From: Parahoeflea alexandrii
GTDB lineage: Bacteria > Pseudomonadota > Alphaproteobacteria > Rhizobiales > Rhizobiaceae
NCBI RefSeq assembly: GCF_027214025.1
Contig: NZ_JAPWHB010000002.1
Coordinates: forward strand, 434,001 to 498,000
Direction of reading: 5' to 3'
Length of the DNA: 64,000 nucleotides
Made by a program: the position numbers and the translations under genes. Shown here piece by piece: positions 1 through 24,541 of this stretch. Position 1 is the stretch's first letter, and each line of letters starts with the position of its first letter. The notes beneath the pieces were generated by a model. That model did no database searches, was not told the origin of the DNA, and was given only the letters and a program-made list of their open reading frames with translations.

Positions 1-168
1 CCTTGCCTTGTTCCAGCCGGTGATCAGCATTGGCCCCCATTCCTCGGCCATCGTCGCGCGGGCGCGCGCGACCGCCGACTTCGGCAAGGGGCCGAGCGAA
101 TTGCCGTCGAGATAGGTGATCCCCTCCGGCAGGTCGAACAGATCCCGCCGCGTCTGGAAGCTGCTCAT
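1..168 (-). CDS. kynU: Kynureninase, N-terminal part (runs off the window)
   Basis: Only the first 56 codons are inside the window. The translation begins MSSFQTRRDLFDLPEG and carries YLDGNSLGPLP, the N-terminal signature of kynureninase, followed by EEWG and ITGWN, which also fit. Kynureninase is a PLP enzyme that cleaves kynurenine to anthranilate and alanine. It begins 4 bases after the RidA stop and is the last visible gene of an operon that activates and degrades anthranilate, so the context fits. The PLP lysine lies outside the window, so integrity of the enzyme cannot be judged. Confidence 0.85.
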   Translation of the reverse strand, partial: MSSFQTRRDLFDLPEGITYLDGNSLGPLPKSAVARARATMAEEWGPMLITGWNKAR

Positions 169-172
169 GGTC

Positions 173-4217: not shown

Positions 4218-4221
4218 GGGT

Positions 4222-5480: not shown

Positions 5481-5482
5481 GG

Positions 5483-7780: not shown

Positions 7781-7843
7781 ATTCTGCACCTCCGGACTGA
7801 TTTCGACTGGCTTCGATCCTACGCCCGAACGAATATATTTCAA

Positions 7844-8033: not shown

Positions 8034-9188
8034 TCAGCCGCCGGTCAGAACGCTTGCCAGCCGGTCAATGCCGGCCCGGGTGGTCATGAAACCCGGCGAA
8101 CACCGCAGGATCGGGCCGCGCGCATCGGCAAACACCGAGACATCCCGCAGTTTCGAAAGCAGCGTCTGGGCGTGGTCCGCGTCAGTCAGGCGCACCATGA
8201 CGCTGCCGCCGCGCTGTGCCGGATCCCGGGGTGAAGCCAGCTCGAATCCGGCCGCATCGGAGGCCGCGATGATCGCCTCGCTCAGGCTGCGGTTCTTGGC
8301 AAGCTGTGCGCCCCAGTCCTGCGCCGCATGCCACTCCAGCGCCGGCACCGTGGCGACGCAGGCCATCACCGACGGCGTGCCGTTGTCGAACCGCCGGATA
8401 TCAGGCGCGTAGGCGAATGCGTTGATATCCCACGAGAAGATATTGTCCTGGCTGAACCAGCCCCTCAGGCTAGGCTGGCAGCGCGCAATCACGTCGGGCA
8501 TCACCTGCAGGATGCCGCCGCCGGGCGATCCGCACATCCACTTCAGGCTGGTCGAGATCGCGAAATCCGCGGCCACCGCCATGCAATCGTAGTCGAACAG
8601 TCCGGCGGCCTGGGTGATATCGACTCCGATCAGCGAGCCCTGTTTGCGACCATGCGCGACTAACGCCTCGAGAACGCAGCGGTGCGACGATGTGGAGCTG
8701 ACCCAGGTCAGGAGCGCCAGCCCCACTTCGGGACCCCAGGCGGTGATCACGTCCTCGTCCTCGACCCAGTGCGCGCCGTCGCGAAGCGGCACCGTGCGCA
8801 ATGTAAAACCATACCGGTCGGCAAGACCGGTCAGCAGGAAATGCAGGCTCGGAAAGCAGTCGCCCGCCACCAGCACCACCCTGCCCTCGAGATCCTCGCG
8901 CGGCAGCGCCATGATCAGCGCCGCCAGCGCCGAGGTCACGTTCTCGGTCGTTGTCAGTGACGCCGACGGCGCGTTGAGCAGCTGGCTCCACAGATCGATG
9001 AACCGCTGCCGCTGCCCCAGCGCATAGCCCCATTGTTCGTCATTGGCAGCACCCCAGCATTCGGCAAATGCCGTCAATGAGGCGGCCATGTCCCGAGCCT
9101 TGCCGGGATACTGCCCGATCGAATGATAGAGCATGTAGCCGTCGCCCTCGGCTTGCGCGTCGCTTGTGCGGCCTGTCTGGTCTGTCAT
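8034..9188 (-). CDS. Diverged kynureninase-fold PLP enzyme (class V aminotransferase family)
   Basis: A 384-residue fold-type I PLP protein. The PLP lysine is K216 in TSLKWMCGSPGGG and the pyridine-nitrogen Asp is D190 in GVDITQAAG. The later GWFSQDN and IRRFDNGTPSV segments resemble kynureninase. However, the N-terminal YLDGNSLG signature is replaced by YHSIGQYPG, the residue before the lysine is Leu rather than Tyr, and the DLAHSAG motif is DITQAAG. It may cleave another beta-substituted aryl amino acid or act as a lyase or desulfurase. The start at 9188 has GGGGGAG upstream. It is the last gene of the leftward Opp operon. Confidence 0.75.
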   Translation of the reverse strand: MTDQTGRTSDAQAEGDGYMLYHSIGQYPGKARDMAASLTAFAECWGAANDEQWGYALGQRQRFIDLWSQLLNAPSASLTTTENVTSALAALIMALPREDLEGRVVLVAGDCFPSLHFLLTGLADRYGFTLRTVPLRDGAHWVEDEDVITAWGPEVGLALLTWVSSTSSHRCVLEALVAHGRKQGSLIGVDITQAAGLFDYDCMAVAADFAISTSLKWMCGSPGGGILQVMPDVIARCQPSLRGWFSQDNIFSWDINAFAYAPDIRRFDNGTPSVMACVATVPALEWHAAQDWGAQLAKNRSLSEAIIAASDAAGFELASPRDPAQRGGSVMVRLTDADHAQTLLSKLRDVSVFADARGPILRCSPGFMTTRAGIDRLASVLTGG

Positions 9189-9257
9189 CTCGATCTCCCC
9201 CGGACCACGCCGTATCAGCGTTCCCTGGCCCTTCACCATGGTTCAGTTCCGGCCCGG

Positions 9258-10097
9258 CTACCAGCCTGCCTGCTGCGGATCGGGCAAGGGAATGGCATCC
9301 AGCAATTCGCGCGTGTAGGCCGCCTGCGGCGCATCGAACACGTGGTCTACATCGCCATACTCGACGATGTTGCCCCGTTGCAGCACCATCACATGATCGC
9401 ACAGCCGCCGGATCACCGACAGGTCGTGGCTGATGAAGGCCAGCGTCAGCCCCAGCTCCTTGACCAGCTCTGCCAGCACATTGAGCACCTGCGCCTGCGA
9501 TGACACATCAAGCCCCGAGACGATCTCGTCGGCCAGGATGAATTCGGGTTTCAGCGCGATGGCGCGGGCGATCCCGACCCTCTGGCGCTGCCCGCCGGAA
9601 AGCTCGTGCGGGTAACGGTTGCGAAATCCGCGCGGAAGCCCGACATGATCGAGCGCATCGTCTATCCGCCCGCCAATATTGTCAAACCCGTGCATCTGCA
9701 GCGGGTCGGCGATGATCGCGCCCACACGCCGGCGCGGATTGAGTGACGACATAGGGTCCTGGAAGATCATCTGCATGCGCCGCCGTATGGGCCTCAGCGC
9801 ATCCTCGTTCAGGTGGGTGATGTCGCGTCCATCAAACAGGATGGTCCCCGCCGTCGGCTCGATCAGCCTGATGAGCGCCCGCCCCAGCGTCGACTTGCCG
9901 GACCCCGAGCCGCCGACGATGCCGAGCACCGAACCCCGGCTGATGTCGAGGTCGATGCCGTTGAGGATGCGGATCAGCGGGGCCTTGCCGAACAGCGGCT
10001 TGGCCGCCATGTCCGGCAGCGCCACCTCGAGCGACCGGGCTGAAAACAGGATGTCGTCCTTTGGAGCAACCGCCCCCGCGCCGTTCTTATCCGCCAT
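9258..10097 (-). CDS. Oligopeptide-type ABC transporter ATPase (OppF-like)
   Basis: A 279-residue cytoplasmic ATPase. Walker A is GGSGSGKST, the ABC signature LSGGQRQR, and Walker B ILADEIVSGLD, in which the usual DEP is DEI; the H-loop is FISHD. The OppF-type MIFQDPMSSLNPRR segment is present. It couples ATP hydrolysis to import through the OppB/OppC pair downstream of the Tat-exported binding protein. It overlaps the preceding OppD gene by 11 bases. The cargo is unknown; gene context suggests an aryl amine, modified amino acid or small peptide. Confidence 0.88.
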   Translation of the reverse strand: MADKNGAGAVAPKDDILFSARSLEVALPDMAAKPLFGKAPLIRILNGIDLDISRGSVLGIVGGSGSGKSTLGRALIRLIEPTAGTILFDGRDITHLNEDALRPIRRRMQMIFQDPMSSLNPRRRVGAIIADPLQMHGFDNIGGRIDDALDHVGLPRGFRNRYPHELSGGQRQRVGIARAIALKPEFILADEIVSGLDVSSQAQVLNVLAELVKELGLTLAFISHDLSVIRRLCDHVMVLQRGNIVEYGDVDHVFDAPQAAYTRELLDAIPLPDPQQAGW

Positions 10098-10965
10098 GAC
10101 GCCACTCCTTGTCGGATGCCAGCACCTCGGCCGCCACCGCCTCGATCACCGCCTCGTCGACCGGCAGCAGCGACGCATCCGGATCGGTGTATTTCGGCGT
10201 CGCCGCCAGCAGCGCCCGGGAATAGGCATGTTTCGGGCCGGTGAAGAAATCGGGGACACTCGAGTTTTCCACGATCTTGCCGCCGTAAAGCACCGACAGC
10301 CGCTGGCAGACTTTCGAGACCACCCCGAGATCGTGGGTGACGAAGACCATGGCGGTCGAATGGCGTTCCTGCAGCTCCCGGATCAGCCTGAGAATCTGCT
10401 TTTGCACCGTCACGTCCAGCGCCGTGGTCGGCTCGTCGGCAATGACCAGCTTCGGGTTGGCGGCGAAGGCCGAGGCGATCAGCACACGCTGACGCATGCC
10501 GCCCGACAACTCGTGCGGATAGCTGCCCATCACCCGTTCGGGATTGTCGATATGCACCTCGTTGAGCAGTTCCAGCGCCCGTACCCGCGCATCCGTCTTG
10601 CCCCAGCCTAGAATGTCGACCAGCCGGTTGGTGATCTGCGGCTCGATCCGCCGCGACGGATTGAGCGCCGTCAGCGGATCCTGCGGGATCAGCGCCGCCG
10701 TGGCGCCGATCAAGCGGCGGCGGTCGGCGGGCTTCATCTTTTGCAGATCCTGCCCGTCAAGCAGGATCTCGCCCTCGATGATCTCGATGGCCGATGGCAG
10801 GATGCCGAGGACCGCCTTGCCGATCATGCTCTTGCCGGCGCCGCTTTCGCCCACCAGGCCGAGCACCTCGCCGGTATCGATGGAGAAAGACACGGAACGC
10901 AGCACCCGCTGGTCGTAGCCGTGCAGCGCCGCGGACAGGTTGTTGACGGTCAGAAACGCGCTCAT
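10087..10965 (-). CDS. Oligopeptide-type ABC transporter ATPase (OppD-like)
   Basis: A 292-residue ATPase starting MSAFLTVNNLSAALHG. Walker A is GESGAGKSM, the signature LSGGMRQRV, Walker B VIADEPTTALD, and the H-loop VTHD. Its start forms an ATGA overlap with the OppC stop. A longer in-frame read-through to 11766 exists but lies within the permease in the wrong frame and is not coding. It is the heterodimer partner of the OppF-like subunit. Confidence 0.9.
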   Translation of the reverse strand: MSAFLTVNNLSAALHGYDQRVLRSVSFSIDTGEVLGLVGESGAGKSMIGKAVLGILPSAIEIIEGEILLDGQDLQKMKPADRRRLIGATAALIPQDPLTALNPSRRIEPQITNRLVDILGWGKTDARVRALELLNEVHIDNPERVMGSYPHELSGGMRQRVLIASAFAANPKLVIADEPTTALDVTVQKQILRLIRELQERHSTAMVFVTHDLGVVSKVCQRLSVLYGGKIVENSSVPDFFTGPKHAYSRALLAATPKYTDPDASLLPVDEAVIEAVAAEVLASDKEWRHGG

Positions 10966-11813
10966 CGCAGCACCGGATCGAAGCGGTCCTTGAGCCCTTC
11001 GCCGAACTGGCTGAAGGAAAGGACGGTCAGGAACAGGACGGCCAGCGGGAACGCCAGCACCCACCAGGCCTGGTAGATCGAGGTGCGGCCCTCGGCAATC
11101 ATCCCGCCCCAGGTCGGCGCGTCGGTGGAGATCGACAGATTGACGAAGGACAGGATCGCCTCGACGATCACCGCAATGCCCATTTCCAGCGTCGACAGCG
11201 CGACAATCGTCGGCAGCACGTTGGGCAGGATCTCCCGCCACAGGATGTCGCGCCGCGGCCGGCCCGCGACAATGGCGCTCGAGACATAATCCATTGCCGA
11301 CTGGTTCATCGCTTCCGCCCGCACCACCCGGCAGAACCGGGTCCAGTCGATGACCACGATGGCGATGATGATCGAGGTGAGCCCGGTGCCGAGCACGGCG
11401 ATCAGCAGGATCGCGAACAGCACCGGCGGAAACGCCATCCAGATATCCACCAGCCGCGAGATCACCACGTCGACCCAGCCGCGCATGTAGCCGGCAAGCA
11501 GTCCGAGCAGCGATCCGACGATCGCCGTGGCAAGCCCGGCGATCAGCGCGACGGAAAAGGCGATCCGGGCGCCATGGATCAGCCGCGACAGCACGTCCCG
11601 GCCGAGGCTGTCGGTCCCAAGCAAATAGGCCGGATCCGACCCGCTTGCCCAGAACGGCGGCAGGCGCCCGGCAAAGAGATCCTGCGCCAGCGGGTCGTGC
11701 GGGCTGATGAGCGGTGCGAACAGCGCCAAGAGCGCCATGACGCCGAGCCAGGTGCCCGACAGCCACAGCCGTGCGCCCAGGCGCCGCTTGATGGAACCGC
11801 GACCGTCAAGCAT
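10962..11813 (-). CDS. Oligopeptide-type ABC transporter permease (OppC-like)
   Basis: A 283-residue inner-membrane permease with about six hydrophobic segments. It has the OppC hallmark GTDSLGRDVLSR after the first periplasmic loop and an EAA-type loop around AIVAGRPRRDILWREILPN. I chose ATG 11813 because GAGG sits seven bases upstream; the longer start at 11840 has no ribosome site and would overlap OppB by 35 bases. It pairs with the OppB-like permease. Confidence 0.88.
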   Translation of the reverse strand: MLDGRGSIKRRLGARLWLSGTWLGVMALLALFAPLISPHDPLAQDLFAGRLPPFWASGSDPAYLLGTDSLGRDVLSRLIHGARIAFSVALIAGLATAIVGSLLGLLAGYMRGWVDVVISRLVDIWMAFPPVLFAILLIAVLGTGLTSIIIAIVVIDWTRFCRVVRAEAMNQSAMDYVSSAIVAGRPRRDILWREILPNVLPTIVALSTLEMGIAVIVEAILSFVNLSISTDAPTWGGMIAEGRTSIYQAWWVLAFPLAVLFLTVLSFSQFGEGLKDRFDPVLR

Positions 11814-12816
11814 GACGCAGCCTCGGATTGAGAAGGGCATAGGTCATGTCGACAACCAGGTTGATGATGGTGAACAGCAGCGCGAAGACGATGACGATGC
11901 CCTGGATCAGCGGCAGGTCGCGGTTGATCACCGCATCGATCGCCATGTTGCCGAGCCCCTCGTAGGAAAACAGCCGCTCGATAATCACAGTGCCGCCGAT
12001 CAGGAAGGTGAACTGGACACCGATCAGCGTCAGCGTCGGCAGCACCGCGTTGGGCAGCGCCTCGGACAGGATCACGTGGTTCTCGCTGTAGCCCTTGGTG
12101 CGCGACAGTGTGACGTAGTCAAGATGCATGGTTTCCTTGAGCGACTGCTTCAGCAACTGGCTGATGATCGCCGCCAGCGGGATCGCCAGCGCGAGCGCCG
12201 GCATGAACATGTGCTTGAGCAGGTCCCACCACAGATCGAAGCGCAGCCGCGCGATGCTCTCGAAGACATAGAATTGCGTGACGAACGGCAGGTCCAGCGA
12301 CGGCGAGATCCGGCCAGAGATGTGAAACACCGGCATCAACACGCCAAACAGCACGATCAGGATCAGCGCCCAGAGAAAGTCGGGGATCGACAGCCCGACG
12401 CCATTGGCCACATCGACGGCCGTTTCGGTACGCGTCTCGCGGTGCCGGACGCCGGTCAGCGCCATCGCGCCGCCGATCACCACCGCAATGACGAGCGCGA
12501 AGATCGCCAGTTCCAGCGTCGCCGGCAACCGCCCGAGCACCAGCGGCATCACCGGCTGGCGCAGGGAGATCGAGGTACCGAAATCTCCGTGAAAGACCCC
12601 GGTCAGCCAGATCCAGAATTGCTCTAAGATGGTCTTGTCGAGCCCGTAATGAGCGGTGAGACGGGCAATGTCCTCTTCCGACGCGCCGGGCGGCAGCATC
12701 ATGGCGATCGGGTTTCCCGGAACCACGCGGATGACGAAGAACACCACCACCGCCGCCCCGATCAAGGTGACCGACATGGTCGCAAGGCGTAGGAGAATTG
12801 CGCGCAACAGTTTCAA
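11806..12816 (-). CDS. Oligopeptide-type ABC transporter permease (OppB-like)
   Basis: A 336-residue permease with an N-terminal membrane helix ending in the OppB signature IRVVPGNP, GLDKTILEQF and SFGTS-like GDFGTS, and a C-terminal NRDLPLIQG segment typical of the family. The start is TTG at 12816, preceded by AGGA. An internal ATG at residue 14 would shorten the first helix, so TTG is preferred with moderate confidence. A terminator-like hairpin separates it from the binding-protein gene. Confidence 0.85.
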   Translation of the reverse strand: MKLLRAILLRLATMSVTLIGAAVVVFFVIRVVPGNPIAMMLPPGASEEDIARLTAHYGLDKTILEQFWIWLTGVFHGDFGTSISLRQPVMPLVLGRLPATLELAIFALVIAVVIGGAMALTGVRHRETRTETAVDVANGVGLSIPDFLWALILIVLFGVLMPVFHISGRISPSLDLPFVTQFYVFESIARLRFDLWWDLLKHMFMPALALAIPLAAIISQLLKQSLKETMHLDYVTLSRTKGYSENHVILSEALPNAVLPTLTLIGVQFTFLIGGTVIIERLFSYEGLGNMAIDAVINRDLPLIQGIVIVFALLFTIINLVVDMTYALLNPRLRHA

Positions 12817-12831
12817 GAGAAGGTGTCCTGC

Positions 12832-12863
12832 AAAAAGGGACCGCCACCGTGAGGCGGCGGCCC
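12832..12863 (-). terminator. Intrinsic terminator or attenuator between binding-protein and permease genes
   Basis: On the minus strand a GC-rich stem (CCGCC/GGCGG, flanked by GGG/CCC, loop of about 7) at 12837-12863 is followed at once by TTTTT. It lies between the binding-protein stop (12881) and oppB (12816). It would end most transcripts after the binding protein and so favour an excess of that protein over the permeases. Confidence 0.65.
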
Positions 12864-12880
12864 GTGTATCTGAACGAAGC

Positions 12881-14410
12881 TTACGCCCGCTTCATCAGGT
12901 GCGGCAGCAGCGCGCCGGACGCATGCGGCGTCACCGCCACGCCATTGGCATGAAGGATCGGCTGCACATACTGCAAGAGCGGGATCACCAGTGCGTTGTC
13001 GGCAATGTACTTGTCGACGGCCTTCCAGCCTTCGATGCGCTTTTCCTCGTCGCCCTCGCCCCAGAGCGGCCCGATCATGTCGATCAGGTCCTGGCCGTCC
13101 CACACCGAGTGCGGCGACGGGCCGAACATGGCGAAACCGGTCGAGGTGGTCGGATCGCCCACCGAGTTGCCCCAGTTGTAGAACGCGGCAGGTGCCAACT
13201 GGTCGGCGGCGCGCAGTTCGTAGTGCTTGGCGATCTCGTAGACCTCGATCTCCGCCTCGATACCGATCTTGCGCCACAGGCCGACGATCGCCTGGACCAT
13301 CTCGTAATCCTTGGGCTTGAAGCCGCGTGTGGTCTGGATCTTGAACTTGACCGGGTTTTCCGGCGAGTAGCCGGATGCCGCCAGCAGTTCCTTGGCCTTT
13401 TCCGGGTCGTATGGAACCTTGATCGAGGCGTCATAGGCCGAATACTCGGGCGTCTGCAGCGTGTCGATGGCAACGCCATAGCCGGACAGCAACCGGTCGA
13501 TGATGAGCTGCTTGTCGATCGACATTGCAGCCGCCTTGCGCACGTTCGGATCGAGCATCACATCAATGTCGTTGAGGAAGATCATGCCAATATCGGAAAT
13601 CGGCGCGGCGGTGCCTGCGATGCCATTGCCGCCCTTGAGTCGGTCATATTCCTCGTAGGGCATTTCCAGCGTCACATGTGCATTGCCCGACTCGATCTCC
13701 GCGACACGCGACGCAGCGTCGGTCACGAACTTGATGGTCACGGTCTCGAAGTCGGGCTTGCCGCCCCAGTAATTCGGGTTGGCCTTCAGCCGCACGAACG
13801 CATTGCGCTCGAACTTGTCGACCATGTAGGGGCCGGTTCCAATCGGAGCGGCTTCAAAGCCTTCCGCGCCAACCTTCTCGTAATAGGCCTTGGGCAGCAC
13901 GTAGCCGGTCAGGAAGTACATCCACTTGAAGATCGTCGGCTCGAAGCGGGCCACATCGGCGGTCACCACATTGCCTTCGGCCTTGATGTTGGCGAGCGTC
14001 GACCAGATGAACTGGATCGGGTTGCCGGTCTTCTCGTCAGCGGCGCGGGTGAGCGACCAGGCGACGTCCTCGGCGGTGAACGGCGAACCGTCATGCCAGG
14101 TCACGCCTTCGCGCACCGTCATCATGACCTTGGTCTTGTCGTCGTTCCAGCCCCATTCGGTCAGCAGGCCGGGCGCGGGCGACAGGTCGGGCTTCTGCAG
14201 GATGAACTGGTCGAACACCGACTGGTAGATCCCCTGGATCGTCGGATTGACCGCCGACGGTCCGACGGTCGGATCCCAGGACGGCAGGTTGACGTTGTAG
14301 GCGATGACAAGTTCATCAATGCCCTGGGCAAAGGCCGGTCCGGCAAAGGCGCTGATCGCCATTGCCGCTGCCGAACCCTTGAGCACTGTGCGGCGCGAAA
14401 TCTGTTTCAT
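12881..14410 (-). CDS. ABC transporter substrate-binding protein (SBP family 5), Tat-exported
   Basis: A 509-residue periplasmic extracytoplasmic binding protein of the DppA/OppA family. It begins MKQISRRTVLKGSAAAM, a twin-arginine signal, with likely cleavage after GPAFA. The family-5 core is visible as VMMTVREGVTWHDGSPFTAEDV. The start at 14410 is supported by GGGAGAACAGC upstream. It lies between the FAD oxidoreductase and the permease genes of the same operon. Family-5 proteins bind peptides but also opines, nickel and aromatic amines, so the ligand is open; the kynureninase-like and FAD enzymes in the operon suggest an aromatic amino compound. Confidence 0.88.
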   Translation of the reverse strand: MKQISRRTVLKGSAAAMAISAFAGPAFAQGIDELVIAYNVNLPSWDPTVGPSAVNPTIQGIYQSVFDQFILQKPDLSPAPGLLTEWGWNDDKTKVMMTVREGVTWHDGSPFTAEDVAWSLTRAADEKTGNPIQFIWSTLANIKAEGNVVTADVARFEPTIFKWMYFLTGYVLPKAYYEKVGAEGFEAAPIGTGPYMVDKFERNAFVRLKANPNYWGGKPDFETVTIKFVTDAASRVAEIESGNAHVTLEMPYEEYDRLKGGNGIAGTAAPISDIGMIFLNDIDVMLDPNVRKAAAMSIDKQLIIDRLLSGYGVAIDTLQTPEYSAYDASIKVPYDPEKAKELLAASGYSPENPVKFKIQTTRGFKPKDYEMVQAIVGLWRKIGIEAEIEVYEIAKHYELRAADQLAPAAFYNWGNSVGDPTTSTGFAMFGPSPHSVWDGQDLIDMIGPLWGEGDEEKRIEGWKAVDKYIADNALVIPLLQYVQPILHANGVAVTPHASGALLPHLMKRA

Positions 14411-14436
14411 GCTGTTCTCCCTGTTATTTTGGGTGT

Positions 14437-16011
14437 TCATTTCCCGCCCAGTTTCTGGGCGAGCATATAGCCTGCACCCGCCCCGGTGCCCGCACCTGGC
14501 CAGACGCTGGCGCCGGTGATGTGCAGACCCTCGACGGGGGTTTTTCCCGTGGCATGACCGAGAGCCGGTCGGAACAGGAAATTCTGTGAAAGATGATGAC
14601 TGCCGGCCACCTGGTCGCCGCCGACCAGGTTCGGGTTGTCGGCTTCGAGATCGAGCGGAGACACCACTGCCCGGCCGATGATCTTCTGACGAATGCCCGG
14701 CGCATGCCGTTCGATGATATCGAGCGCCCGCTCTGCATAGATCTCCTTGACCTGCGCCCAGTCGGTTACCGATATCTTGCCGGCCGCATCGCCACGGATT
14801 TCACCCGGCACCATGCGCACCTGGACCCACAGCACGTGCTTGCCCTCGGGCGCCCGGCTCGGATCGACCACCGTCGGCTGCCCGACCACGAGAACCGGTT
14901 CGTCCGGCAAAAGTCCCGCAACGGCCTGCTGATAGGTGCGCGCCATCTGGTCGAGCGACGGCGCGATGTGCACATAGGCGAATGCCTTGAGCTCTTCGCT
15001 CGCGGTCCAGTCCGGCAGGCCATCGAGCGCCAGGTGGATCATCATGGTGCCCGGCGCATGGACGAAGCCGGTCATCTTGCGGTCAAACCCTGCATCGCCG
15101 GACTGGCCCTCGAGCAGCGACATCAGCCCACTTGGCGCGACATTGGCGATCACCGCCTTGCTGGCATTGATTCTTGAACCGTCGGCAAGCTCGACACCGG
15201 TCGCCTTGCCGCCATCGCGGATGATCCGGGCCACCCGCTTGCCGCAATGGACCTCGCCGCCCGACGCCTCGATCTTCGACACCAGCGCCCGGGTAACGGT
15301 GTCCGCCCCACCCTTGCCGATGACCATTCCGAAATTCTGGTTGGCCATCGATTCAAGATACGGAAACACCGCGCCGCCAGCCATGTCGGGCGCGAAGTCG
15401 AGATGCATGCCCCAAGCGGCCAACGTCGTCCGCACATGCTCGGACTCGAAGGTCTCCGTCAGCCACTTGCGCGGCGACGACAGCAGCATGCGCACCAGAT
15501 CCGCGGTCCAGGCGAAGCCCTTGCGGAACAACGCCTTTGCCAGAAGCCTGCCTTGTATATGCATTTGCATGGGATTTCCGAGCAAGGCGAAGACATATTC
15601 GGCCGTGCCGGGAAATTCTGCGCAAAGCCTGTCCCAGGCTTTGGCGTCGGCTTCGGAGAATGTTGCGATCCGGGCCCGGGTTTCGCCCGCTCCGGTGCTC
15701 ACACCCATCCATTTGCCATCATCGAAAACGCTGGCAAAACAATGCGAAGCGGGCGCGAACTCCAGCCCGCGGCCAATCAGGTCCGCGCCATAGGCCTTGA
15801 AAAACACGGAACCCGCAAACAGGCTCAAATTCATTGCGGCCCAGTCATGACGAAAGCCCGGCGCCGTCAGCTCGAGCGTCTTGACCGCCCCGCCCGGCGT
15901 GCCAGCCTGCTCGAACACGCCGACACGCCAGCCTTTGGCGCCCAGATGCACCGCGCAGGCCAGGCTGTTCACGCCGGCGCCAACAATTATCGCGTCATAC
16001 TCGTTCTGCAC
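14437..16011 (-). CDS. NAD(P)/FAD-dependent oxidoreductase, phytoene-desaturase/PYROXD2-like (copy A)
   Basis: A 524-residue flavoprotein with the Rossmann motif IIVGAGVNSLACA at the N-terminus and a C-terminal FAD segment ITGASVWPGAGTGAGAG. It belongs to the phytoene desaturase/amine-oxidase-like superfamily that includes PYROXD2 and is too divergent from carotenoid enzymes to be assigned there; no other carotenoid genes are present. The start is GTG at 16011, the only one before the nucleotide-binding motif. It is the first gene of the leftward operon, facing a paralogue at 16967-18544. Dehydrogenation of an imported aryl amine or indole is a reasonable guess, not shown. Confidence 0.8.
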   Translation of the reverse strand: MQNEYDAIIVGAGVNSLACAVHLGAKGWRVGVFEQAGTPGGAVKTLELTAPGFRHDWAAMNLSLFAGSVFFKAYGADLIGRGLEFAPASHCFASVFDDGKWMGVSTGAGETRARIATFSEADAKAWDRLCAEFPGTAEYVFALLGNPMQMHIQGRLLAKALFRKGFAWTADLVRMLLSSPRKWLTETFESEHVRTTLAAWGMHLDFAPDMAGGAVFPYLESMANQNFGMVIGKGGADTVTRALVSKIEASGGEVHCGKRVARIIRDGGKATGVELADGSRINASKAVIANVAPSGLMSLLEGQSGDAGFDRKMTGFVHAPGTMMIHLALDGLPDWTASEELKAFAYVHIAPSLDQMARTYQQAVAGLLPDEPVLVVGQPTVVDPSRAPEGKHVLWVQVRMVPGEIRGDAAGKISVTDWAQVKEIYAERALDIIERHAPGIRQKIIGRAVVSPLDLEADNPNLVGGDQVAGSHHLSQNFLFRPALGHATGKTPVEGLHITGASVWPGAGTGAGAGYMLAQKLGGK

Positions 16012-16147
16012 CGCGCCAAATCCCCATTCGAGATTTATAATTGCAAATGCATATTATTTTGTCTAGCATCTATTTATCGCAGAACGCTGGCCCATAATCT
16101 GGGTCGCAACCGGAAACACAACAGGCCCCGCCAGAGGAGGATCACTC
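16012..16147. promoter_or_regulatory. Divergent promoter region between the two aromatic operons
   Basis: This 136-base gap separates two divergent operons. Its centre (about 16035-16080) is strikingly AT-rich and contains TGCA-AA-TGCA (inverted repeat, two-base spacer) flanked by ATAAT and ATTAT. This is a plausible site for the MarR protein at 18541-19032. A Shine-Dalgarno (AGAGGAGG) precedes the rightward start. Assignment of the operator is inference. Confidence 0.55.
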
Positions 16148-16939
16148 ATGAATGCTGCAGAAACACTGGGCAATCTCGCCGCAATGCTGCTTGAGGGAAA
16201 AGTCGAGGTCGTCGACCTCTCCGGATCGCTGGGCCCGGATACGCCTCTTCTCAAGCTGCCGCCTGAATTCGCCAAGGACACCCCGAAGATCGAGGTCCAC
16301 AGGATTTCCGAATATGACAATGACGGTCCGTTCTGGGCCTGGAACTGGCTCAAGATCGGCGAGCACTCCGGCACCCATTTCGATGCACCGCATCACTGGA
16401 TCACCGGCAAGGACTATGCCGACGGCTACACCGACACCATTCCGCCGCAGAACTTCGTTGCGCCCGTCAACGTCATCGACTGCTCCGCGGAAGTCGCCAA
16501 GAATCCCGACTTCCTGCTCGACGCCGCGGGCGTCAAGGCCTGGGAAGCCAAGCACGGCGAGATCAAGCCCGGCGAATGGGTGGTGATGCGCACCGACTGG
16601 GACGCGCGCGCCGGTGACGAGAATGCCTACCTCAACGCCGACGAAACCGGGCCGCATTCGCCTGGCCCCACCGTCGACTGCATCCAGTATATCCTCTCCA
16701 AGGGCGCCGTCGGCTGGGGCACACAGTGCATCGGCACCGATGCCGGCCAGGCCGGCGGCATGGAACCGCCGTTTCCGGCGCACAACCTGCTGCACGCGGC
16801 CAACAAATACGGCCTCGCCTCGCTCGCCAATCTGAGCAAGCTGCCGCCCAAGGGCGCGGTCCTGATTGCCGCCCCGCTGAAGCTGGTCAACGGCACAGGC
16901 AGCCCGATCCGCGCCATGGCGCTGGTTGCACGCAGCTAA
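16148..16939 (+). CDS. Cyclase family metal-dependent hydrolase (isatin hydrolase or kynurenine formamidase type)
   Basis: A 263-residue protein of the cyclase family (PF04199). The metal-binding signature HSGTHFDAPHH is at residues 73-83 (H73, H77, D79, H83), as in kynurenine formamidase KynB and isatin hydrolase. KynB proteins are usually about 210 residues, so the length favours the isatin hydrolase or another branch. Either activity would deliver an anthranilate precursor: isatin to isatinate, or N-formylkynurenine to kynurenine. It leads the rightward operon, has a strong ribosome site, and is followed by an FAD oxidoreductase. Substrate is unproven. Confidence 0.8.
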   Translation: MNAAETLGNLAAMLLEGKVEVVDLSGSLGPDTPLLKLPPEFAKDTPKIEVHRISEYDNDGPFWAWNWLKIGEHSGTHFDAPHHWITGKDYADGYTDTIPPQNFVAPVNVIDCSAEVAKNPDFLLDAAGVKAWEAKHGEIKPGEWVVMRTDWDARAGDENAYLNADETGPHSPGPTVDCIQYILSKGAVGWGTQCIGTDAGQAGGMEPPFPAHNLLHAANKYGLASLANLSKLPPKGAVLIAAPLKLVNGTGSPIRAMALVARS

Positions 16940-16966
16940 GGCGCGAGATCGCCAGGGACCAGGACG

Positions 16967-18544
16967 ATGGCAGATTATGACCACATCATCGTGGGCAGCG
17001 GCATCAACGCGCTCATTGCCGCGGCCATGCTTTCCTCGAAAGGGAAACGCGTGCTGGTTCTCGAACGCAGCGACCGCTTCGGCGGTTGCATGCGCACCGA
17101 GGAAATCACCCTGCCGGGGTTCCACCATGACGTCATGGCGGCAACCTTCGTGCTCTTCCTCACCTCCCCCGCCCATGCCGCGCTCGGACCTGATCTGGCG
17201 CGGCATGGACTGGAGTTCTGCCATACGCCGCACCCGACTGCCGTGCTGAGGCCCGACGGCTCCTCGCTGGTCCTGACCACCGACCGGGCGGCCAATATCA
17301 AGACTTTCAACGCGCTCTCGGCAGGCGATGGCGACCGTCACGGCGCCGATGTCGGCGCGATCGAGGCCGATGCGCCCTTTCTGTTTGCCCTGCTCGGCGG
17401 CGAATTGTGGAGCTGGCCAACCGCCAAGCTGCTGATCCAGCAGGCCTGGAAGCGCGGTCTCCGCGGCCTCGCCGCCTGGATGGGAGAGGCCCTGCGCCCG
17501 ATCCGGGCCTGGCTCGAACCAAATTACACCTCCGGCCTCGTTCAGGCGCTCTGGGCGCCCTGGGCGCTGCACACCGGACTGACGACCGAATCCGCCTATG
17601 GCGGCCAGATGGGCAAGGTCATTGCCTTCGCGCTCGAAGCCGCCGGCGCGCCGGTGGTCAAGGGCGGCGCCGGTCAGGCCGTCGAAGCCTTCAAACGTCT
17701 GATCGAGGAAAAGGGCGGCGAACTGCGCAGCGGCGCCGATGTCGACAAGATACTGGTGCAGAACGGCAAGGCAACAGGCGTCCGGCTCGCCGACGGCTCC
17801 GACATCGCCGCATCGCATGTTATCTGCTCGGTCGCGCCGGGACAGCTCTACAACAGGCTTCTGCGCGAAGAGACGGCAAAGCTGCCGCAGGAAGTTAAAT
17901 CGGGCCTGAGCCAATTCCGCCACGGCCGCGGCAATTTCCAGCTGCATTACGCCATCGACGGACCGATCCGCTGGAAAACCCAGGGCCTTGAAGACGTCGC
18001 TCTGATCCACCTGGCCGAGAGCATCGATTCCGTATCCAAATCCTCCAACGAGGCCGAGCGCGGCATGCTGCCGGTGACGCCGACCATCTGCGTCGGCCAG
18101 CCGCACCGGCTTGATCCGTCCCGCTGCCCGGAGGGCAAGTCGATCCTCTGGCTGCAGATCCCGGATGCGCCCCGCGCCATCAAGGGCGACGCCGCCGGCG
18201 AGATCGCGACCGATGGCGTCTGGAGCGAGGCCACGCGCGAAGCCTTCGCCGACCGCATCGAAGCGATTCTCGCCGCCCATATCGAGGGTTTCGGCGACAG
18301 CGTCCTCGCCCGCAAGGCCTATTCGCCGGCTGATCTCGAAACCATGAACATCAATCTGGTTGGCGGCGACCCCTATGGCGGCTCCTGTGCGCTCGACCAG
18401 TTCTTCATCTGGCGGCCCTTCTCCCAGTCGGTGAACAATGCGACCGCGCTTCCCAACCTGCATCATATCGGTGCCTCGACGCATCCGGGTCCCGGACTCG
18501 GCGGCGGTTCGGGCTTCCTTCTGGCAAAGAGGTTGGGCGGATGA
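16967..18544 (+). CDS. NAD(P)/FAD-dependent oxidoreductase, phytoene-desaturase/PYROXD2-like (copy B)
   Basis: A 525-residue paralogue of the protein at 14437-16011. It shares the N-terminal IIVGSGINALIAAAML motif, a PGFHHD segment at the same position (PGFRHD in copy A), the NLVGGDPYGGS/NLVGGDQVAGS block near the C-terminus and a final Gly-rich HPGPGLGGGSG. The two copies head or nearly head opposite operons, suggesting two related oxidations or a heteromeric enzyme. The gene ends in an ATGA overlap with marR. Function is unknown beyond FAD-dependent oxidoreduction. Confidence 0.8.
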   Translation: MADYDHIIVGSGINALIAAAMLSSKGKRVLVLERSDRFGGCMRTEEITLPGFHHDVMAATFVLFLTSPAHAALGPDLARHGLEFCHTPHPTAVLRPDGSSLVLTTDRAANIKTFNALSAGDGDRHGADVGAIEADAPFLFALLGGELWSWPTAKLLIQQAWKRGLRGLAAWMGEALRPIRAWLEPNYTSGLVQALWAPWALHTGLTTESAYGGQMGKVIAFALEAAGAPVVKGGAGQAVEAFKRLIEEKGGELRSGADVDKILVQNGKATGVRLADGSDIAASHVICSVAPGQLYNRLLREETAKLPQEVKSGLSQFRHGRGNFQLHYAIDGPIRWKTQGLEDVALIHLAESIDSVSKSSNEAERGMLPVTPTICVGQPHRLDPSRCPEGKSILWLQIPDAPRAIKGDAAGEIATDGVWSEATREAFADRIEAILAAHIEGFGDSVLARKAYSPADLETMNINLVGGDPYGGSCALDQFFIWRPFSQSVNNATALPNLHHIGASTHPGPGLGGGSGFLLAKRLGG

Positions 18545-19032
18545 ACGAGGCCAAAGCCCCGGAGACTGAAAAGTCCGAACCGATTCAGCGGCTGGGCGAG
18601 ATCGGTCTGTCCAATTTCGCGCCTTACCTGATGAACCGGATCATGGGCCGCTACAATGCCGATCTGCGGCAGGAAATGACCGGTCTCGGGCTGACCACGC
18701 CAAAGATGCGCGCGCTTGCGGTTCTCTCGGTTATCGATGACCTGCCGATCAGCGACCTTGCGGTCTATGCCGTGGTTGAACAGTCGACACTGAGCCGCGC
18801 CCTCGATCAGCTTGCATCCGACGGTCTTGTCCGGCGCGGACCCGATCCCAATGACAGCCGGGTGACACGTATCGGCATCACCGGGACGGGTCGCGCGGCA
18901 CTCGACCAGCTCTGGCCCTCGATGGCCCGGGTCTATGCGCAGATGTTCAAGGACATCCCGGACGAAGAGCGCCAGGCCTTCGTCACCACCTTGCAGAAAA
19001 TGCTCAAGAACATCCGCAAGCACGATTTCTAA
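18541..19032 (+). CDS. MarR family transcriptional regulator
   Basis: A 163-residue MarR/winged-helix protein. The HTH covers ISDLAVYAVVEQSTLSRALD, with the wing PDPNDSRVTRIGIT. It is translationally coupled to the FAD oxidoreductase by an ATGA overlap. It is the likely regulator of the divergent operons through the AT-rich region at 16012-16147, and may sense an aromatic intermediate or its CoA ester. It is not closely similar to the MarR at 4222-4722, so the two aromatic segments appear separately controlled. Confidence 0.85.
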   Translation: MNEAKAPETEKSEPIQRLGEIGLSNFAPYLMNRIMGRYNADLRQEMTGLGLTTPKMRALAVLSVIDDLPISDLAVYAVVEQSTLSRALDQLASDGLVRRGPDPNDSRVTRIGITGTGRAALDQLWPSMARVYAQMFKDIPDEERQAFVTTLQKMLKNIRKHDF

Positions 19033-19050
19033 TGACGGGAAAGACACAGC

Positions 19051-21198
19051 ATGGCTGAACGCTCATTCGCCAAGGAAGTCCAGAAACTCAAGGTCGGGGA
19101 AGGTGAAACCTTTTCCGGCGAGGGCATTCTGGCGCTGACAAAAGCGCTTCTGGAAGCCGGCGTCGGCTATGTCGGCGGCTATCAGGGCGCGCCGATCAGC
19201 CACCTGATGGACGTGCTCGCCGATGCCGAGGAAATCCTCACAGAACTCGGCGTGCGCTACGAGGCCAATGCCTCCGAAGCGGCAGCCGCAGCGATGCTGG
19301 CGGCCTCCGTGCATTACCCGATCCGCGGCGCGGTCACCTTCAAGGGACCGGTCGGTGTCAATGTCGCCTCCGATGCGCTGGCCAACCTCTCTTCTTCTGG
19401 CGTCACCGGCGGCGCTCTGGTGATCATCGGCGAGGATTACGGCGAAGGCTCCTCGATCATGCAGGAGCGCAGCCATGCCTTCGCCATGAAATCGCAGATG
19501 TGGCTGCTCGATCCGCGGCCCAACCTGCCCTCCATCGTCCAGTCCGTGCACCAGGGGTTCGAGCTCTCGGAAGCCACCAACACCCCTGTCATGCTGATGG
19601 TCCGCATCCGCTCCTGCCATGTCACCGGCAGTTTTGCGGCCAAGGACAACAAGCGTCCGCCCTTTACCGTCAAGGATGCGCTGGCCAATCCGCGTAGCGA
19701 CTATGCCCGCGTCGTGCTGCCGCCGATGTCCTACATGCAGGAACACGACAAGATCAACAACCGCTGGCCGGCGGCGCAGAAGTTCATCGTCGAGCACAAG
19801 CTCAACGAGATGTTCGGCCCGAAGGAAGCCCCCGTCGGTATCGTGCTGCAGGGCGGCATGTACAATGGCGTGATCCGCGCGCTGCAGCGCCTCGGTCTCG
19901 CCGACATCCATGGCGATACCGAGATCCCGCTCTACGTGCTCAATGTCACCTACCCGCTGGTCAATGACGAGTTCTTCGAATTCTGCGAAGGCAAGTCCTC
20001 GGTGCTGGTGGTCGAGGAAGGTCAGCCGGAATTCATCGAGCAGGCCCTGGGATCAGCGCTTTACCGCGCCGGAAAGAGCATCAGCCTGCACGGCAAGGAC
20101 ATGCTGCCGATGGCCGGCGAATACACCGGCCAGATCATGCTCGACGGCATCGAGGCCTTCCTGAAAAAGGCTGCCCCCGAATTGCTGCCGGCCCGCCTGC
20201 GCGCACCCAACTCCGAAGAGAAGCCGGCGCTGCCCGACCTTTCCAAGACGGTCCCGATCCGTCCGCCCGGGTTCTGCACCGGCTGCCCGGAGCGCCCGAT
20301 CTTCGCCGCCCTGAAAATGACCGAGCAGGAATTCGGCAAGCACCAGATCGCCGGCGACATCGGCTGCCACCTGTTCGCCAGCCTTCCGCCTTTCGAAATC
20401 GGCGGCTCGACCATGGGCTACGGCCTCGGCCCGGCCTCCAACGCCGCCTTCGACGGCGGCGGCGACAAGCGCTCTATCTCGATCCTTGGCGATGGAGGTT
20501 TCTGGCACAACGGCCTGTCGTCATCGATCGGCAACGCGGTCTACAACAAGTCCGACGGCGTCATCGTCATCGTCGACAATTTCTATTCCGCCGCCACCGG
20601 TGGCCAGGACATTCTTTCCTCGCGCGCCGACAACCCCAGCAAGGCCACCGGCCACCCGATCGCAGATGCTGTTAAAGGCGTGGGCGTCAAATGGGTCCGC
20701 CAGATCGACCGCACCTATGATGTGCCGAAGATGCGCGAGATCCTGAAAGAGGCGCTGACCACCGACCATGTCGGACCCAAGGTCATCGTCGCCTCGTCGG
20801 AATGCATGCTCAACAAGCAGCGCCGCGAAAAGCCGCTGATGAACAAGGCGATCAAGGAAGGTCGCCGGGTCGAAAAGCCGCGCTTTGGCGTCGACGAGGA
20901 CATCTGCACCGGCGATCACGCCTGCATCCGGCTGTCGGGCTGTCCGTCGCTGTCGCTCAAGAAACTCGACGATCCGCTGAGGGACGACCCGGTCGCCAGC
21001 ATCGACCAGAGCTGCGTCGGCTGCGGCAATTGTGGCGAAGTCGCAGATGCCGCGGTGCTGTGCCCGTCCTTCTTCCGTGCCGATGTCGTGCACAATCCGG
21101 GCTGGCTCGAACGCACGCTCGGCTCATTCACCAGCCGCACCATCGCCTGGCTGCAAAACCGCCGCTCCCGCGGCCGCATCGAATTCGTCCGGACCTGA
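19051..21198 (+). CDS. iorA: Indolepyruvate ferredoxin oxidoreductase, alpha subunit
   Basis: A 715-residue thiamine-diphosphate enzyme subunit. The N-terminal pyrimidine-binding domain contains YVGGYQGAPISHLMD; the ThDP domain has FCTGCPERPIF and GDGGFWHNGL followed by IVDNFYSAATGGQD. At the C-terminus lie two Fe-S motifs: CTGDHAC (C619, D622, C625) and CVGCGNCGEV. The first has Asp where CxxCxxC ferredoxins have Cys. IorAB oxidatively decarboxylates arylpyruvates such as indolepyruvate to aryl-acetyl-CoA, passing electrons to ferredoxin. Four bases separate it from iorB. The electron acceptor gene is not in the window. Confidence 0.85.
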   Translation: MAERSFAKEVQKLKVGEGETFSGEGILALTKALLEAGVGYVGGYQGAPISHLMDVLADAEEILTELGVRYEANASEAAAAAMLAASVHYPIRGAVTFKGPVGVNVASDALANLSSSGVTGGALVIIGEDYGEGSSIMQERSHAFAMKSQMWLLDPRPNLPSIVQSVHQGFELSEATNTPVMLMVRIRSCHVTGSFAAKDNKRPPFTVKDALANPRSDYARVVLPPMSYMQEHDKINNRWPAAQKFIVEHKLNEMFGPKEAPVGIVLQGGMYNGVIRALQRLGLADIHGDTEIPLYVLNVTYPLVNDEFFEFCEGKSSVLVVEEGQPEFIEQALGSALYRAGKSISLHGKDMLPMAGEYTGQIMLDGIEAFLKKAAPELLPARLRAPNSEEKPALPDLSKTVPIRPPGFCTGCPERPIFAALKMTEQEFGKHQIAGDIGCHLFASLPPFEIGGSTMGYGLGPASNAAFDGGGDKRSISILGDGGFWHNGLSSSIGNAVYNKSDGVIVIVDNFYSAATGGQDILSSRADNPSKATGHPIADAVKGVGVKWVRQIDRTYDVPKMREILKEALTTDHVGPKVIVASSECMLNKQRREKPLMNKAIKEGRRVEKPRFGVDEDICTGDHACIRLSGCPSLSLKKLDDPLRDDPVASIDQSCVGCGNCGEVADAAVLCPSFFRADVVHNPGWLERTLGSFTSRTIAWLQNRRSRGRIEFVRT

Positions 21199-21201
21199 TT
21201 A

Positions 21202-22785
21202 ATGGCAAGCAAGACCCAAACAGCACTGCAATCCAAGGCCCACGACCCGGCGCTGGATCAGATCATCAAGCTGGCGATCATGGCCGTCGGCGGTCAGGGC
21301 GGCGGCGTTCTCACCAACTGGATCGAGGATTGTGCCCACCGTAATGGTTATGTGGTGCAGGCGACCTCGGTGGCGGGTGTCGCCCAGCGCACAGGCGCCA
21401 CGATCTATTACATGGAAATGGCGCCGGCGCAGGAACGCGCTCCAGTATTTTCTCTTCTGCCGGCCGCAGGCGACGTCGACATTCTGGTCGCCGCCGAGAT
21501 GATGGAGGCCGGCCGCGCCATCATGCGCGGTTTCGTCACCCCCGACCGCACGACATTGATCGCGTCTTCGCACCGGGCTCTCGCGGTCTCGGAAAAGACC
21601 GTGCCCGGCGACGGCATCGCCGATTCCGAGGAAGTGATCGCCGCAGCTGAAATCGCCGCACAGCGCTTCATCGCCTTCGACATGGAGAAGATGGCGGTCG
21701 ACGCCGGCTCGATGATTTCAGCCAGCCTGTTCGGCGCGCTTGCCGGTTCCGGCGCGCTGCCTTTCGAGCGCGAAAGTTTCGAAGCCGCGATCAAGGCGTC
21801 CGGGCGCGGCGTTGAGGCCAGTCTTCGCGCTTTCGCAGCCAGCTTCGACGCCGCCACCGGCGGCAAGATCGAACGACCACAGTCCGGCCAGGCCAAGCTC
21901 CCCGCTGCCAATACGCCGGCGGGACCGAAGCATCTGGTCGAACATTGGTCAAAGCTCGAAGCCCGTGCCGCGGCCATGCCCGAGGCGGCCCGCGACATGG
22001 CGCTCACCGGGCTTCGCGCGGTGGTTGACTTCCAGGACCTCGACTATGGCGCGGAATATCTCGACCGGCTTGAACAGGTGCTCGCCCAGGATGACCCGGC
22101 CAAGGGATACGAACTGACCCGCGAAGCCGCCAAATATATCGCCAAGGCGATGGCCTATGACGACGTCTTCCGCGTCGCAGACCTCAAGACCCGCGGCAGC
22201 CGCTTTGCCCGCGTTCGCTCAGAGATCGGCCCGGCCAAGGGCGCGCAGATGAAGCTGACCGAATTCATGCATCCCCGCGCCGAGGAAATCGTCGGCATGA
22301 TGCCCTCGAGCCTCGGCCGCAGGCTTTCGAAGAGCGAGAGCAGCATGCGGCTGATCGATCGCTTGTTCAACAAGGGTCGCAGGCTCAGGACCGACCGCCT
22401 TCTTCCCTTCGCCCAACTCTATGTGCTTGGCGGACTGCGCAAGTACCGGCGCGGCACCTTACGTCACGCCATCGAGAAGCAGCACATGGAAGCCTGGCTC
22501 GACAAGGCCATGACCTACCGCAAGATCGGCTATGCGCTCGGCGTCGAAACCCTGCGCAACCGCCGCCTGGTCAAGGGGTACTCCGACACCCATGCGCGCG
22601 GCCTGTCGAAGTTTGATCGGGTCATGGATGGCGTCGCCCTGCTCGCTGGCCGGGACGATGCAGCGCACTGGTGCAAGCTTTTGCGCGAGGCCGCACTGGC
22701 CGACGAAAAGGGCGACCAGCTGGAAGGCGCGCTCAAGACCGTGCGGTCCTTTGCCGAACCGCGTGAAACCGCGCTTCCCAACTGA
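21202..22785 (+). CDS. iorB: Indolepyruvate ferredoxin oxidoreductase, beta subunit with C-terminal extension
   Basis: A 527-residue subunit. Residues of about 20-210 form the pyruvate:ferredoxin oxidoreductase gamma-type domain (AIMAVGGQGGGVLTNW, VAGVAQRTGAT). The archaeal beta subunit is only about 200 residues; here roughly 300 further residues follow, helical and charged (for example KYIAKAMAYDDVFRVADLK), a conserved extension of proteobacterial relatives with unknown role. It follows iorA directly and ends the rightward operon. The CoA-forming arylpyruvate oxidation role is inferred from the family. Confidence 0.83.
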   Translation: MASKTQTALQSKAHDPALDQIIKLAIMAVGGQGGGVLTNWIEDCAHRNGYVVQATSVAGVAQRTGATIYYMEMAPAQERAPVFSLLPAAGDVDILVAAEMMEAGRAIMRGFVTPDRTTLIASSHRALAVSEKTVPGDGIADSEEVIAAAEIAAQRFIAFDMEKMAVDAGSMISASLFGALAGSGALPFERESFEAAIKASGRGVEASLRAFAASFDAATGGKIERPQSGQAKLPAANTPAGPKHLVEHWSKLEARAAAMPEAARDMALTGLRAVVDFQDLDYGAEYLDRLEQVLAQDDPAKGYELTREAAKYIAKAMAYDDVFRVADLKTRGSRFARVRSEIGPAKGAQMKLTEFMHPRAEEIVGMMPSSLGRRLSKSESSMRLIDRLFNKGRRLRTDRLLPFAQLYVLGGLRKYRRGTLRHAIEKQHMEAWLDKAMTYRKIGYALGVETLRNRRLVKGYSDTHARGLSKFDRVMDGVALLAGRDDAAHWCKLLREAALADEKGDQLEGALKTVRSFAEPRETALPN

Positions 22786-23991: not shown

Positions 23992-24068
23992 CCCTGTCAA
24001 GCGAGGACGACCTCCCCCATCCGGGAAAATTGTGGCCGGGACGACCCGACGAGGAGCTGGGGATCTCC

Positions 24069-24494: not shown

Positions 24495-24541
24495 AGCCGC
24501 CGCACCGCGGCGACGCGGCCGGGGCCGGTCTGGAAACGGGA

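Follow-up and report, generated by a model that had tools for sequence, protein, structure and literature searches.

A conserved pair of divergent operons in Parahoeflea alexandrii as a possible isatin-centred catabolic module

Which compound do two divergent operons of Parahoeflea alexandrii import and oxidise, and does it end in anthranilate catabolism? The operons lie at positions 8034-22785 of a window of 64,000 nucleotides, the whole stretch of DNA analysed (positions 434,001 to 498,000 of contig NZ_JAPWHB010000002.1; G000:C21:434001-498000, within source genome G000 of 5.54 Mb), and face each other across a gap at 16012-16147. In order, the leftward operon encodes a flavoprotein (FAD1), a solute-binding protein, the components OppB, OppC, OppD and OppF of an Opp-type importer, and a kynureninase-like enzyme (KYNL), while the rightward operon encodes a cyclase-family hydrolase, a second flavoprotein (FAD2), a MarR regulator and the oxidoreductase subunits IorA and IorB. 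All the genes that an initial annotation had named between these positions were found in the right place and of the right kind. The operons are tentatively read here, with a likelihood put just short of even, as a catabolic module that centres on isatin and has an entry arm of its own, and the initial idea of an indolic pathway converging on anthranilate or 2-aminobenzoyl-CoA gained support from an isatin hydrolase ortholog, from the conservation of the gene block, and from the co-occurrence of IorA, hydrolase and abmA genes.

Isatin hydrolysis is the only step of this reading that rests on a studied relative, isatin hydrolase B (IHB) of Roseibium aggregatum. The best solved relative of the cyclase (16148..16939, plus strand) was IHB of Labrenzia aggregata (PDB 4j0n; phmmer E = 4.5e-138, residues 1-262 aligned), with 194/262 identical residues (74%). 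Residues 1-262 of 4j0n are encoded exactly in the cluster of Roseibium aggregatum IAM 12614 (L091), a species name that we take to be the newer one of Labrenzia aggregata, the species of the crystal structure. The published hallmarks of isatin hydrolases are a metal motif HxG[T/A]HxDxPxH, a GLAS/GLQC signature and a WXW/FXW aromatic pocket (PMC6117287). The cyclase possessed the metal motif (beginning HxGTHxD, with H73, H77, D79 and H83 kept), the GLAS signature at LaIHB positions 222-225, and a WXW pocket in which Phe63 is replaced by Trp, a change allowed by the WXW/FXW motif, while W84 and F209 are kept. By sequence it is thus an isatin hydrolase ortholog of the IHB type, with a predicted activity. 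Its candidacy as a formylkynurenine hydrolase (KynB) was rejected, with 25.2 bits against the 223.05-bit cut-off of TIGR03035 and the match to isatin hydrolase B instead; of the two substrates first proposed for the cyclase, isatin was therefore retained and formylkynurenine dropped.

The conservation of the surrounding genes was assessed from an alignment of FAD2, with which 405 relatives were retrieved from the genome collection. Of these, the best 80 loci were taken, so that nearer relatives are favoured, and two of them that resemble contaminant contigs were retained (L081, Nocardioides; L114, a Blastopirellula metagenome-assembled genome). By the record titles of these relatives, the carriers include many Rhizobiales and Rhodobacterales. 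The core block was defined as eleven neighbouring genes (FAD2 and ten others), with KYNL as an accessory. Among the 63 of 80 loci with enough sequence on both flanks (two-sided loci), 57 possessed all ten other core genes, so the block exceeds chance, and the neighbourhood search, which had been named beforehand as a test, came out for conservation. Over all 80 loci, with contig ends disregarded, the cyclase was found in 77, MarR in 78, FAD1 in 75, IorA in 68, IorB in 65, the binding protein in 70, the Opp genes in 64-68 and KYNL in 17. The same divergent block was also carried by plasmid records of Sulfitobacter and Tritonibacter, and Alloyangia possessed the same genes on one strand.

The gap between the operons has 48% G+C against 63% for the window, in agreement with the shared AT-rich promoter region first described. 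A conserved motif within it (16041..16069, plus strand) probably represents overlapping promoters or an operator. When whole loci were scanned, the best match per locus had at most 5 mismatches out of 23 in 76/80 loci, compared with 7 to 10 in shuffled loci; placement inside the gap was established for the 46 gaps that were cut out (the window's included), of which 43 contained TGTCTAG and 41 TTGCAAA. A scan of the source genome with up to 3 mismatches returned one site, and a search for palindromes in the gap between the operons revealed no common operator. As the motif resembles overlapping divergent promoters, it is likely a shared control point.

The association of hydrolase, IorA and abmA types was measured in a single sample of 385 genomes from the window's class, of which 58 possessed the IorA type, 13 the hydrolase type, 71 the abmA type and 4 FAD2. 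All 13 hydrolase genomes (source genome included) also had the IorA type, and 12 the abmA type. With the source genome excluded, as it was from all expected numbers, the hydrolase was accompanied by IorA in 12/12 genomes (expected 1.8) and by the abmA type in 11/12 (expected 2.2), and IorA by the abmA type in 40/57 (expected 10.4).

The window's IorAB comprises a thiamine pyrophosphate (TPP) 2-oxoacid oxidoreductase alpha subunit (IorA; 19051..21198, plus strand), 98% identical to the IorA of Hoeflea alexandrii, and an IorB with POR and DUF6537 domains (21202..22785, plus strand), which exceeded the cut-off of PRK08312, the indolepyruvate oxidoreductase beta family (675.1 bits, cut-off 348). 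Members of the TPP 2-oxoacid oxidoreductase family produce CoA thioesters, and phenylglyoxylate oxidoreductase belongs to the 2-oxoacid:acceptor family. We propose that IorAB converts isatinate and CoA to 2-aminobenzoyl-CoA. In a tree of 21 IorA sequences, ten module IorAs grouped with that of Sulfitobacter indolifex and with a TRAP-linked pair (100/99 support) and stood apart from the sequences of the iad (auxin-degradation) loci and from a cupin-type group. The TRAP-linked IorABs (L126 and L127, genomes G253 and G524), the nearest hydrolase-less ones to the module IorA in the tree, adjoin DctM and DctP genes, with no hydrolase at the threshold used; a carboxylate substrate, possibly an imported aryl-2-oxoacid, would fit this context, in which IorAB is not tied to an isatin hydrolase. 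In three loci from Caballeronia, Shinella and Ruegeria (L024, L038 and L039), IorAB was observed beside genes for a thioesterase, a cupin protein, a fumarylacetoacetate hydrolase and an Asp/Glu racemase family member, perhaps a different lower route via a hydroxylated thioester. On plasmid 3 of Variovorax sp. PBS-H4 (L030), IorA matched in two pieces between IS1071 transposase genes, and six plasmid records among the matches listed had the same figures.

Left of both operons, a 2-aminobenzoyl-CoA (abm) type operon spans 621-7843, all on the minus strand. It encodes an abmG-like aryl-CoA ligase (621..2246; benzoate-CoA ligase family, 358.5 bits, cut-off 375.25), an acyl-CoA dehydrogenase (2248..3414) and a short-chain dehydrogenase (4719..5564), both assigned by family search, an enoyl-CoA hydratase (3414..4304; PRK08258, 473.4 bits, cut-off 330), a MarR-like regulator (4222..4788) and an abmA-type fused FAD monooxygenase/old-yellow-enzyme reductase (5483..7843; PRK08255, 1303.8 bits, cut-off 1078). 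Open reading frame (ORF) starts were taken from the longest frame, and some therefore lie too far upstream. The regulator was named from its translation and recurs beside abmA in relatives; an NCBIfam search gave no match for it at E<=1e-20. The PRK08255 model is named salicylyl-CoA 5-hydroxylase; the abmA type stands for the 2-aminobenzoyl-CoA or salicylyl-CoA hydroxylase family. The kynU gene (canonical kynureninase) that had been placed alongside this operon does lie beyond it, but almost entirely outside the window (right edge of the match at 1..183, minus strand; whole match G000:C21:433113-434183), and its test stretch, 357 aa of the gene, scored 245.4 bits against the TIGR01814 cut-off of 246.4.

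Taken as one route, the genes would act as follows. An indolic or oxindole compound would be taken up by the Opp-type importer with its probably Tat-exported binding protein and oxidised at the pyrrole ring by FAD1 and FAD2 to isatin. The IHB-type hydrolase, given its 74% identity and conserved active site, would open isatin to isatinate (2-aminophenylglyoxylate), and IorAB would convert isatinate and CoA to 2-aminobenzoyl-CoA and CO2, which would spare the ATP of the AbmG ligase. The neighbouring abm-type operon would then degrade 2-aminobenzoyl-CoA, and both operons are probably under the control of the MarR regulator (18541..19032, plus strand), acting at the conserved motif between them.

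Several observations weigh against this reading. The expected co-occurrence numbers treat genomes as independent and ignore shared ancestry, and 45 of the 57 other IorA genomes possessed no such hydrolase, which indicates that IorAB is not dedicated to isatinate. Of the 13 hydrolase genomes (source genome included), only 6 had the gene at most 10 kb from IorA, and the other 7 had no IorA within 25 kb on the same contig. IorA and abmA were at most 25 kb apart in only 4 cases of the 385 genomes, the window included, many of the assemblies being fragmented. The abmA-type matches have about 50% identity and may represent salicylyl-CoA 5-hydroxylases. The six exceptions among the two-sided loci (L059, L062, L078, L086, L098 and L100) all lacked IorAB, and four of them (L059, L062, L078 and L100) retained the hydrolase without it. 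In Variovorax, moreover, iadC-K2 fully restores anthranilate (PMC12633357), so iadAB is not required for anthranilate there. The same work also contains an observation in favour of the isatin-centred reading: strong accumulation of C8H7NO3 and C7H7NO, formulas that match isatinic acid and 2-aminobenzaldehyde, occurs in a deletion strain only upon overexpression of iadC-K2 (PMC12633357). This strain presumably lacks iadAB, but the accumulation could result from overexpression alone. Lastly, FAD1 and FAD2 are closest to carotenoid desaturases, which gives no support to an indolic substrate.

The best-surviving alternative, though itself judged unlikely, is that IorAB is a true arylpyruvate oxidoreductase, which would convert indolepyruvate to indoleacetyl-CoA upstream, the module degrading indole-acetic acid (IAA) or its conjugates and the isatin hydrolase acting further down. 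The family name of IorA and its kinship to the indolepyruvate oxidoreductase (IOR) alpha equivalog TIGR03336 speak for it, yet the score of 281.5 bits lies well below the cut-off of 650.9, and the source genome already possesses three fused IOR-like proteins (frames of 1158-1201 aa) beside the split IorA of the window. IorAB is a marker of published iad loci (PMC9613470), and in two loci that lack the hydrolase (L124 and L125) it is accompanied by abm genes and a kynureninase-like gene; conversely, Sulfitobacter indolifex keeps the hydrolase and IorAB together as cyclase-MarR-IorA-IorB, with no FAD or Rieske gene annotated alongside in the 22 kb examined, the FAD-type matches of its plasmid lying about 60 kb away. 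The window's MarR was also considered as a possible IAA sensor. Its second-best solved relative, 7kym (8.1e-24), belongs to the MarRs from auxin loci described in PMC9613470, whereas the closest is 3cjn (1.5e-56), for which the text consulted names no ligand, and the IAA-binding IadR 3cdh is far more distant (4.3e-11). The module itself also lacks the CoA ligase or thiolase that the acetyl side chain would call for.

The entry arm of the proposed module comprises the two flavoproteins and the importer. FAD1 (14437..16011, minus strand, its end overlapping the start of the binding-protein gene) and FAD2 (16967..18544, plus strand) are CrtI/CrtO-fold flavoproteins about 38% identical to each other. 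Both could be modelled fairly well, at mean pLDDT (predicted local distance difference test) values of 86.5 and 81.8, although segments close to the C-terminus were of low confidence. Structure searches with the models ranked carotenoid desaturases first (4rep, 4dgk); nicotine, amine and protoporphyrinogen oxidases came next, along with Rab-GDI-like folds, a series that does not indicate the substrate. A role as carotenoid enzymes was considered and not favoured, since the CrtO scores were 211.1 and 159.3 of 1000 bits and those for crtI_fam 140.7 and 99.5 of 238.1. The importer genes, all on the minus strand, encode the ATPases OppF (9258..10097, by family search) and OppD (10087..10935, by family search, inside an ORF at 10087-11766 with the protein start at about 10935), the permeases OppC (10962..11840, from its translation and kept in relatives) and OppB (11806..12816; BPD_transp_1, 2.7e-33), and a family-5 solute-binding protein (12881..14440). 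The last is assigned by its match to SBP_bac_5 (5.2e-74); the Tat export first ascribed to it corresponds to a weak signal match under the cut-off (TAT_signal, 9.1e-4) and stays probable. Next to the block, at 23077-30112 of the window, lies a further group of Opp-type transporter genes together with a LysR regulator; the binding protein of this group was found in 8/80 loci, all Hoeflea.

FAD1, FAD2 and Opp might instead degrade a different import, such as a larger alkaloid or a peptide-linked or pigment-like compound, whose breakdown would release isatin or an analogue for the hydrolase; this reading ranks next and is unlikely as well. Opp importers suit larger polar substrates, Mesorhizobium loti pML2037 carries FAD1 and Opp without the other unit, and FAD1 homologues (41-51% identity) occur in other contexts, haloarchaea included. 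Two Tabrizicola loci (L086 and L098) also keep FAD1, FAD2, Opp and MarR, with FAD1 and FAD2 directly adjacent, and have lost the hydrolase and IorAB together. This joint loss, along with the four loci that have the hydrolase only, suggests that the block is composed of two units, FAD1-FAD2-Opp and hydrolase-IorAB; against a separate import, however, stands the retention of hydrolase and IorAB with the FAD pair in 57/63 two-sided loci. Under the isatin-centred reading, an oxindole-level compound is the simplest guess for the substrate, because no oxygenase was found among the module genes at 8034-22785. Two genomes (G302 and G447) possessed both the module and the abmA type, with no StyA-like match at E<=1e-20 in either; an iad Rieske query found nothing in G302 and, in G447, only a partial match at 30% identity. 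The module therefore probably has a substrate of its own.

KYNL (8034..9239, minus strand; Aminotran_5, 1.4e-18; KYNU_C, 6.4e-8) keeps the pyridoxal phosphate (PLP) lysine and the C-terminal KYNU domain, and had no match to the kynureninase equivalog TIGR01814 at E<=0.001, which agrees with the initial description of a diverged kynureninase-fold enzyme. In kynureninase the Tyr directly before the PLP lysine is functionally relevant; this residue is Leu in all six KYNL rows aligned and Tyr in both kynureninase rows. With the Leu, the unmatched equivalog and a separate kynU in the genome, KYNL was rejected as a canonical kynureninase, and the anthranilate-yielding activity first attributed to it gained no support. 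Members of the KYNL clade (at least 55% identity) were present in 26 of 37 module genomes searched (G000, G150, G302 and G447, plus those to which 33 of the 80 loci belong, L119 left out), within about 10 kb of the module in 17/80 loci. A class-wide draw of 240 genomes contained KYNL in two (G000 and G302, both module carriers), and an order-level draw of 150 genomes in three (G000, G068 and G100), with no module in the 40 kb around KYNL in G068 and G100. On sequence grounds KYNL is a clade distinct from kynureninase, and by this distribution it is accessory to the module but linked to it. Relatives of KYNL also stand beside other transporters, and a second copy in the source genome (G000:C50:564055-565176, L015), 61% identical, has a further group of Opp-type transporter genes at a distance of about 4 kb. 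The KYNL neighbourhoods of G068, of G100 and of this paralogue were compared by visual inspection and by BLAST with the genes of the window, and did not point to a shared substrate; one small protein from them had no Pfam match.

A route from oxidised tryptophan, which would give KYNL a part, is considered improbable. In it, Opp would import peptides or free oxindolylalanine, FAD1 and FAD2 would yield dioxindolylalanine by oxidation at C3 of the oxindole, and KYNL would split this by a retro-aldol reaction into isatin and L-alanine, followed by isatinate and 2-aminobenzoyl-CoA. The idea rests on the Opp-type importer, on the KYNL clade in 26/37 module genomes against 2/240 class-wide, and on the chemistry, as kynureninase is capable of retro-aldol cleavage; it is opposed by the 11/37 module genomes without the clade, by the KYNL relatives with other transporters, and by the occurrence of KYNL in G068 and G100, of the same order, with no module in the surrounding 40 kb. 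If true, it would constitute a further route from tryptophan to anthranilate, for oxidation-damaged tryptophan. The weakest alternative, an ordinary tryptophan/kynurenine branch in which KYNL is the kynureninase, the cyclase the formamidase and anthranilate comes from kynurenines, has the KYNU_C domain of KYNL and the adjacent canonical kynU and abm-type operon in its favour, and is very improbable given an isatin hydrolase in place of KynB, the missing Tyr of KYNL, the separate kynureninase and the presence of KYNL near only 17 of the 80 modules.

The source genome also possesses loci of the two published types of pathway. A second locus on the same contig (C21:726-742 kb, L021) carries iad genes for a MarR regulator, a reductase, a Rieske pair, a ligase, a thiolase, dehydrogenases and an isatin-hydrolase-like cyclase; the 16 kb examined contained no IorAB, unlike the iad-type loci L121, L122 and L037. 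An iif-like set (G000:C31:47001-67000, L132) encodes a StyA-type oxygenase, a flavin reductase, a short-chain dehydrogenase (SDR) and an AraC regulator, together with a luciferase-like monooxygenase and a flavin reductase, both kinds of gene adjoining the module in some other loci. Because no other split IorA was found in the source genome, the window's IorAB may also serve its iad-type and iif-like branches.

Should the isatin-centred reading hold, the crystallised isatin hydrolase B would gain a conserved pathway context, IorAB would become a candidate enzyme for the isatinate step in the degradation of auxin and indole, and many Rhizobiales and Rhodobacterales would possess an entry to the isatin node that is so far uncharacterised. 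A direct conversion of isatinate to 2-aminobenzoyl-CoA by IorAB would bypass both free anthranilate and an ATP-dependent ligase. The hydrolase, IorAB and abm-type genes going together also make the status of isatin as an intermediate of indole degradation directly testable. In a literature search whose coverage left most subscription journals outside, the FAD pair with an Opp importer was not found described, and isatin hydrolase or isatinate was joined with IorAB only in the iad paper (isatin and IorAB, one locus). Within this search, the suggestion of an unpublished combination holds for the FAD pair and importer; the hydrolase-type gene and IorAB overlap published iad loci.

Among known systems, isatin hydrolase B (PDB 4j0n/4m8d) is the ortholog of the window's cyclase and is encoded in a syntenic cluster of Roseibium aggregatum; its paper (PMC6117287) uses neither 'gene cluster' nor 'operon' as a term. 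With the CrtI/CrtO desaturase/ketolase family, FAD1 and FAD2 have fold and sequence family in common, at scores far below the curated cut-offs. With indolepyruvate and phenylglyoxylate oxidoreductases, IorAB shares the TPP 2-oxoacid oxidoreductase family and its CoA-thioester product, and differs in its split IorA and IorB-DUF6537, its place below the IOR-alpha cut-off and the isatinate proposed as substrate. The iif/ind indole cluster (PMC6221969) likewise leads to anthranilate by way of oxidised indoles. Genes for StyA-type oxygenases adjoin the module in 11/80 loci, in several of them along with flavin reductase, SDR and AraC genes, and also in G150, whereas the module at 8034-22785 contains no StyA-type oxygenase or flavin reductase, the set being located on C31 of the source genome. 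According to the review of indole degradation, no iif gene is tied to isatin, and it is an open question whether isatin is a real intermediate of the pathway (PMC6221969).

The closest comparison is with the iad loci of Variovorax paradoxus CL14 and Bradyrhizobium (PMC9613470, PMC12633357), which have iorA/iorB (iadA/iadB) and a MarR regulator in common with the module. Isatin and isatinic acid are reported as intermediates of auxin degradation, and anthranilate as its product (PMC9613470). The Variovorax IadI, annotated as a kynurenine formamidase, is the putative counterpart of the module's cyclase; in L121, L122 and L021 the corresponding cyclase is isatin-hydrolase-like. Two of the iad-type loci with IorAB, L121 (G349) and L122 (G481), carry this gene along with IorAB, in L121 directly before it, without FAD genes and with abm genes also present, which indicates that the lower arm is shared with auxin loci. 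The module contains neither the IadCDE Rieske system, a Rieske system being present elsewhere in the source genome, nor the CoA ligase, thiolase and alcohol dehydrogenase, which are found at C21:726-742 kb. It possesses two CrtI-fold flavoproteins and an Opp importer instead, and this entry arm is the new part of a module whose lower arm is shared with published auxin loci.

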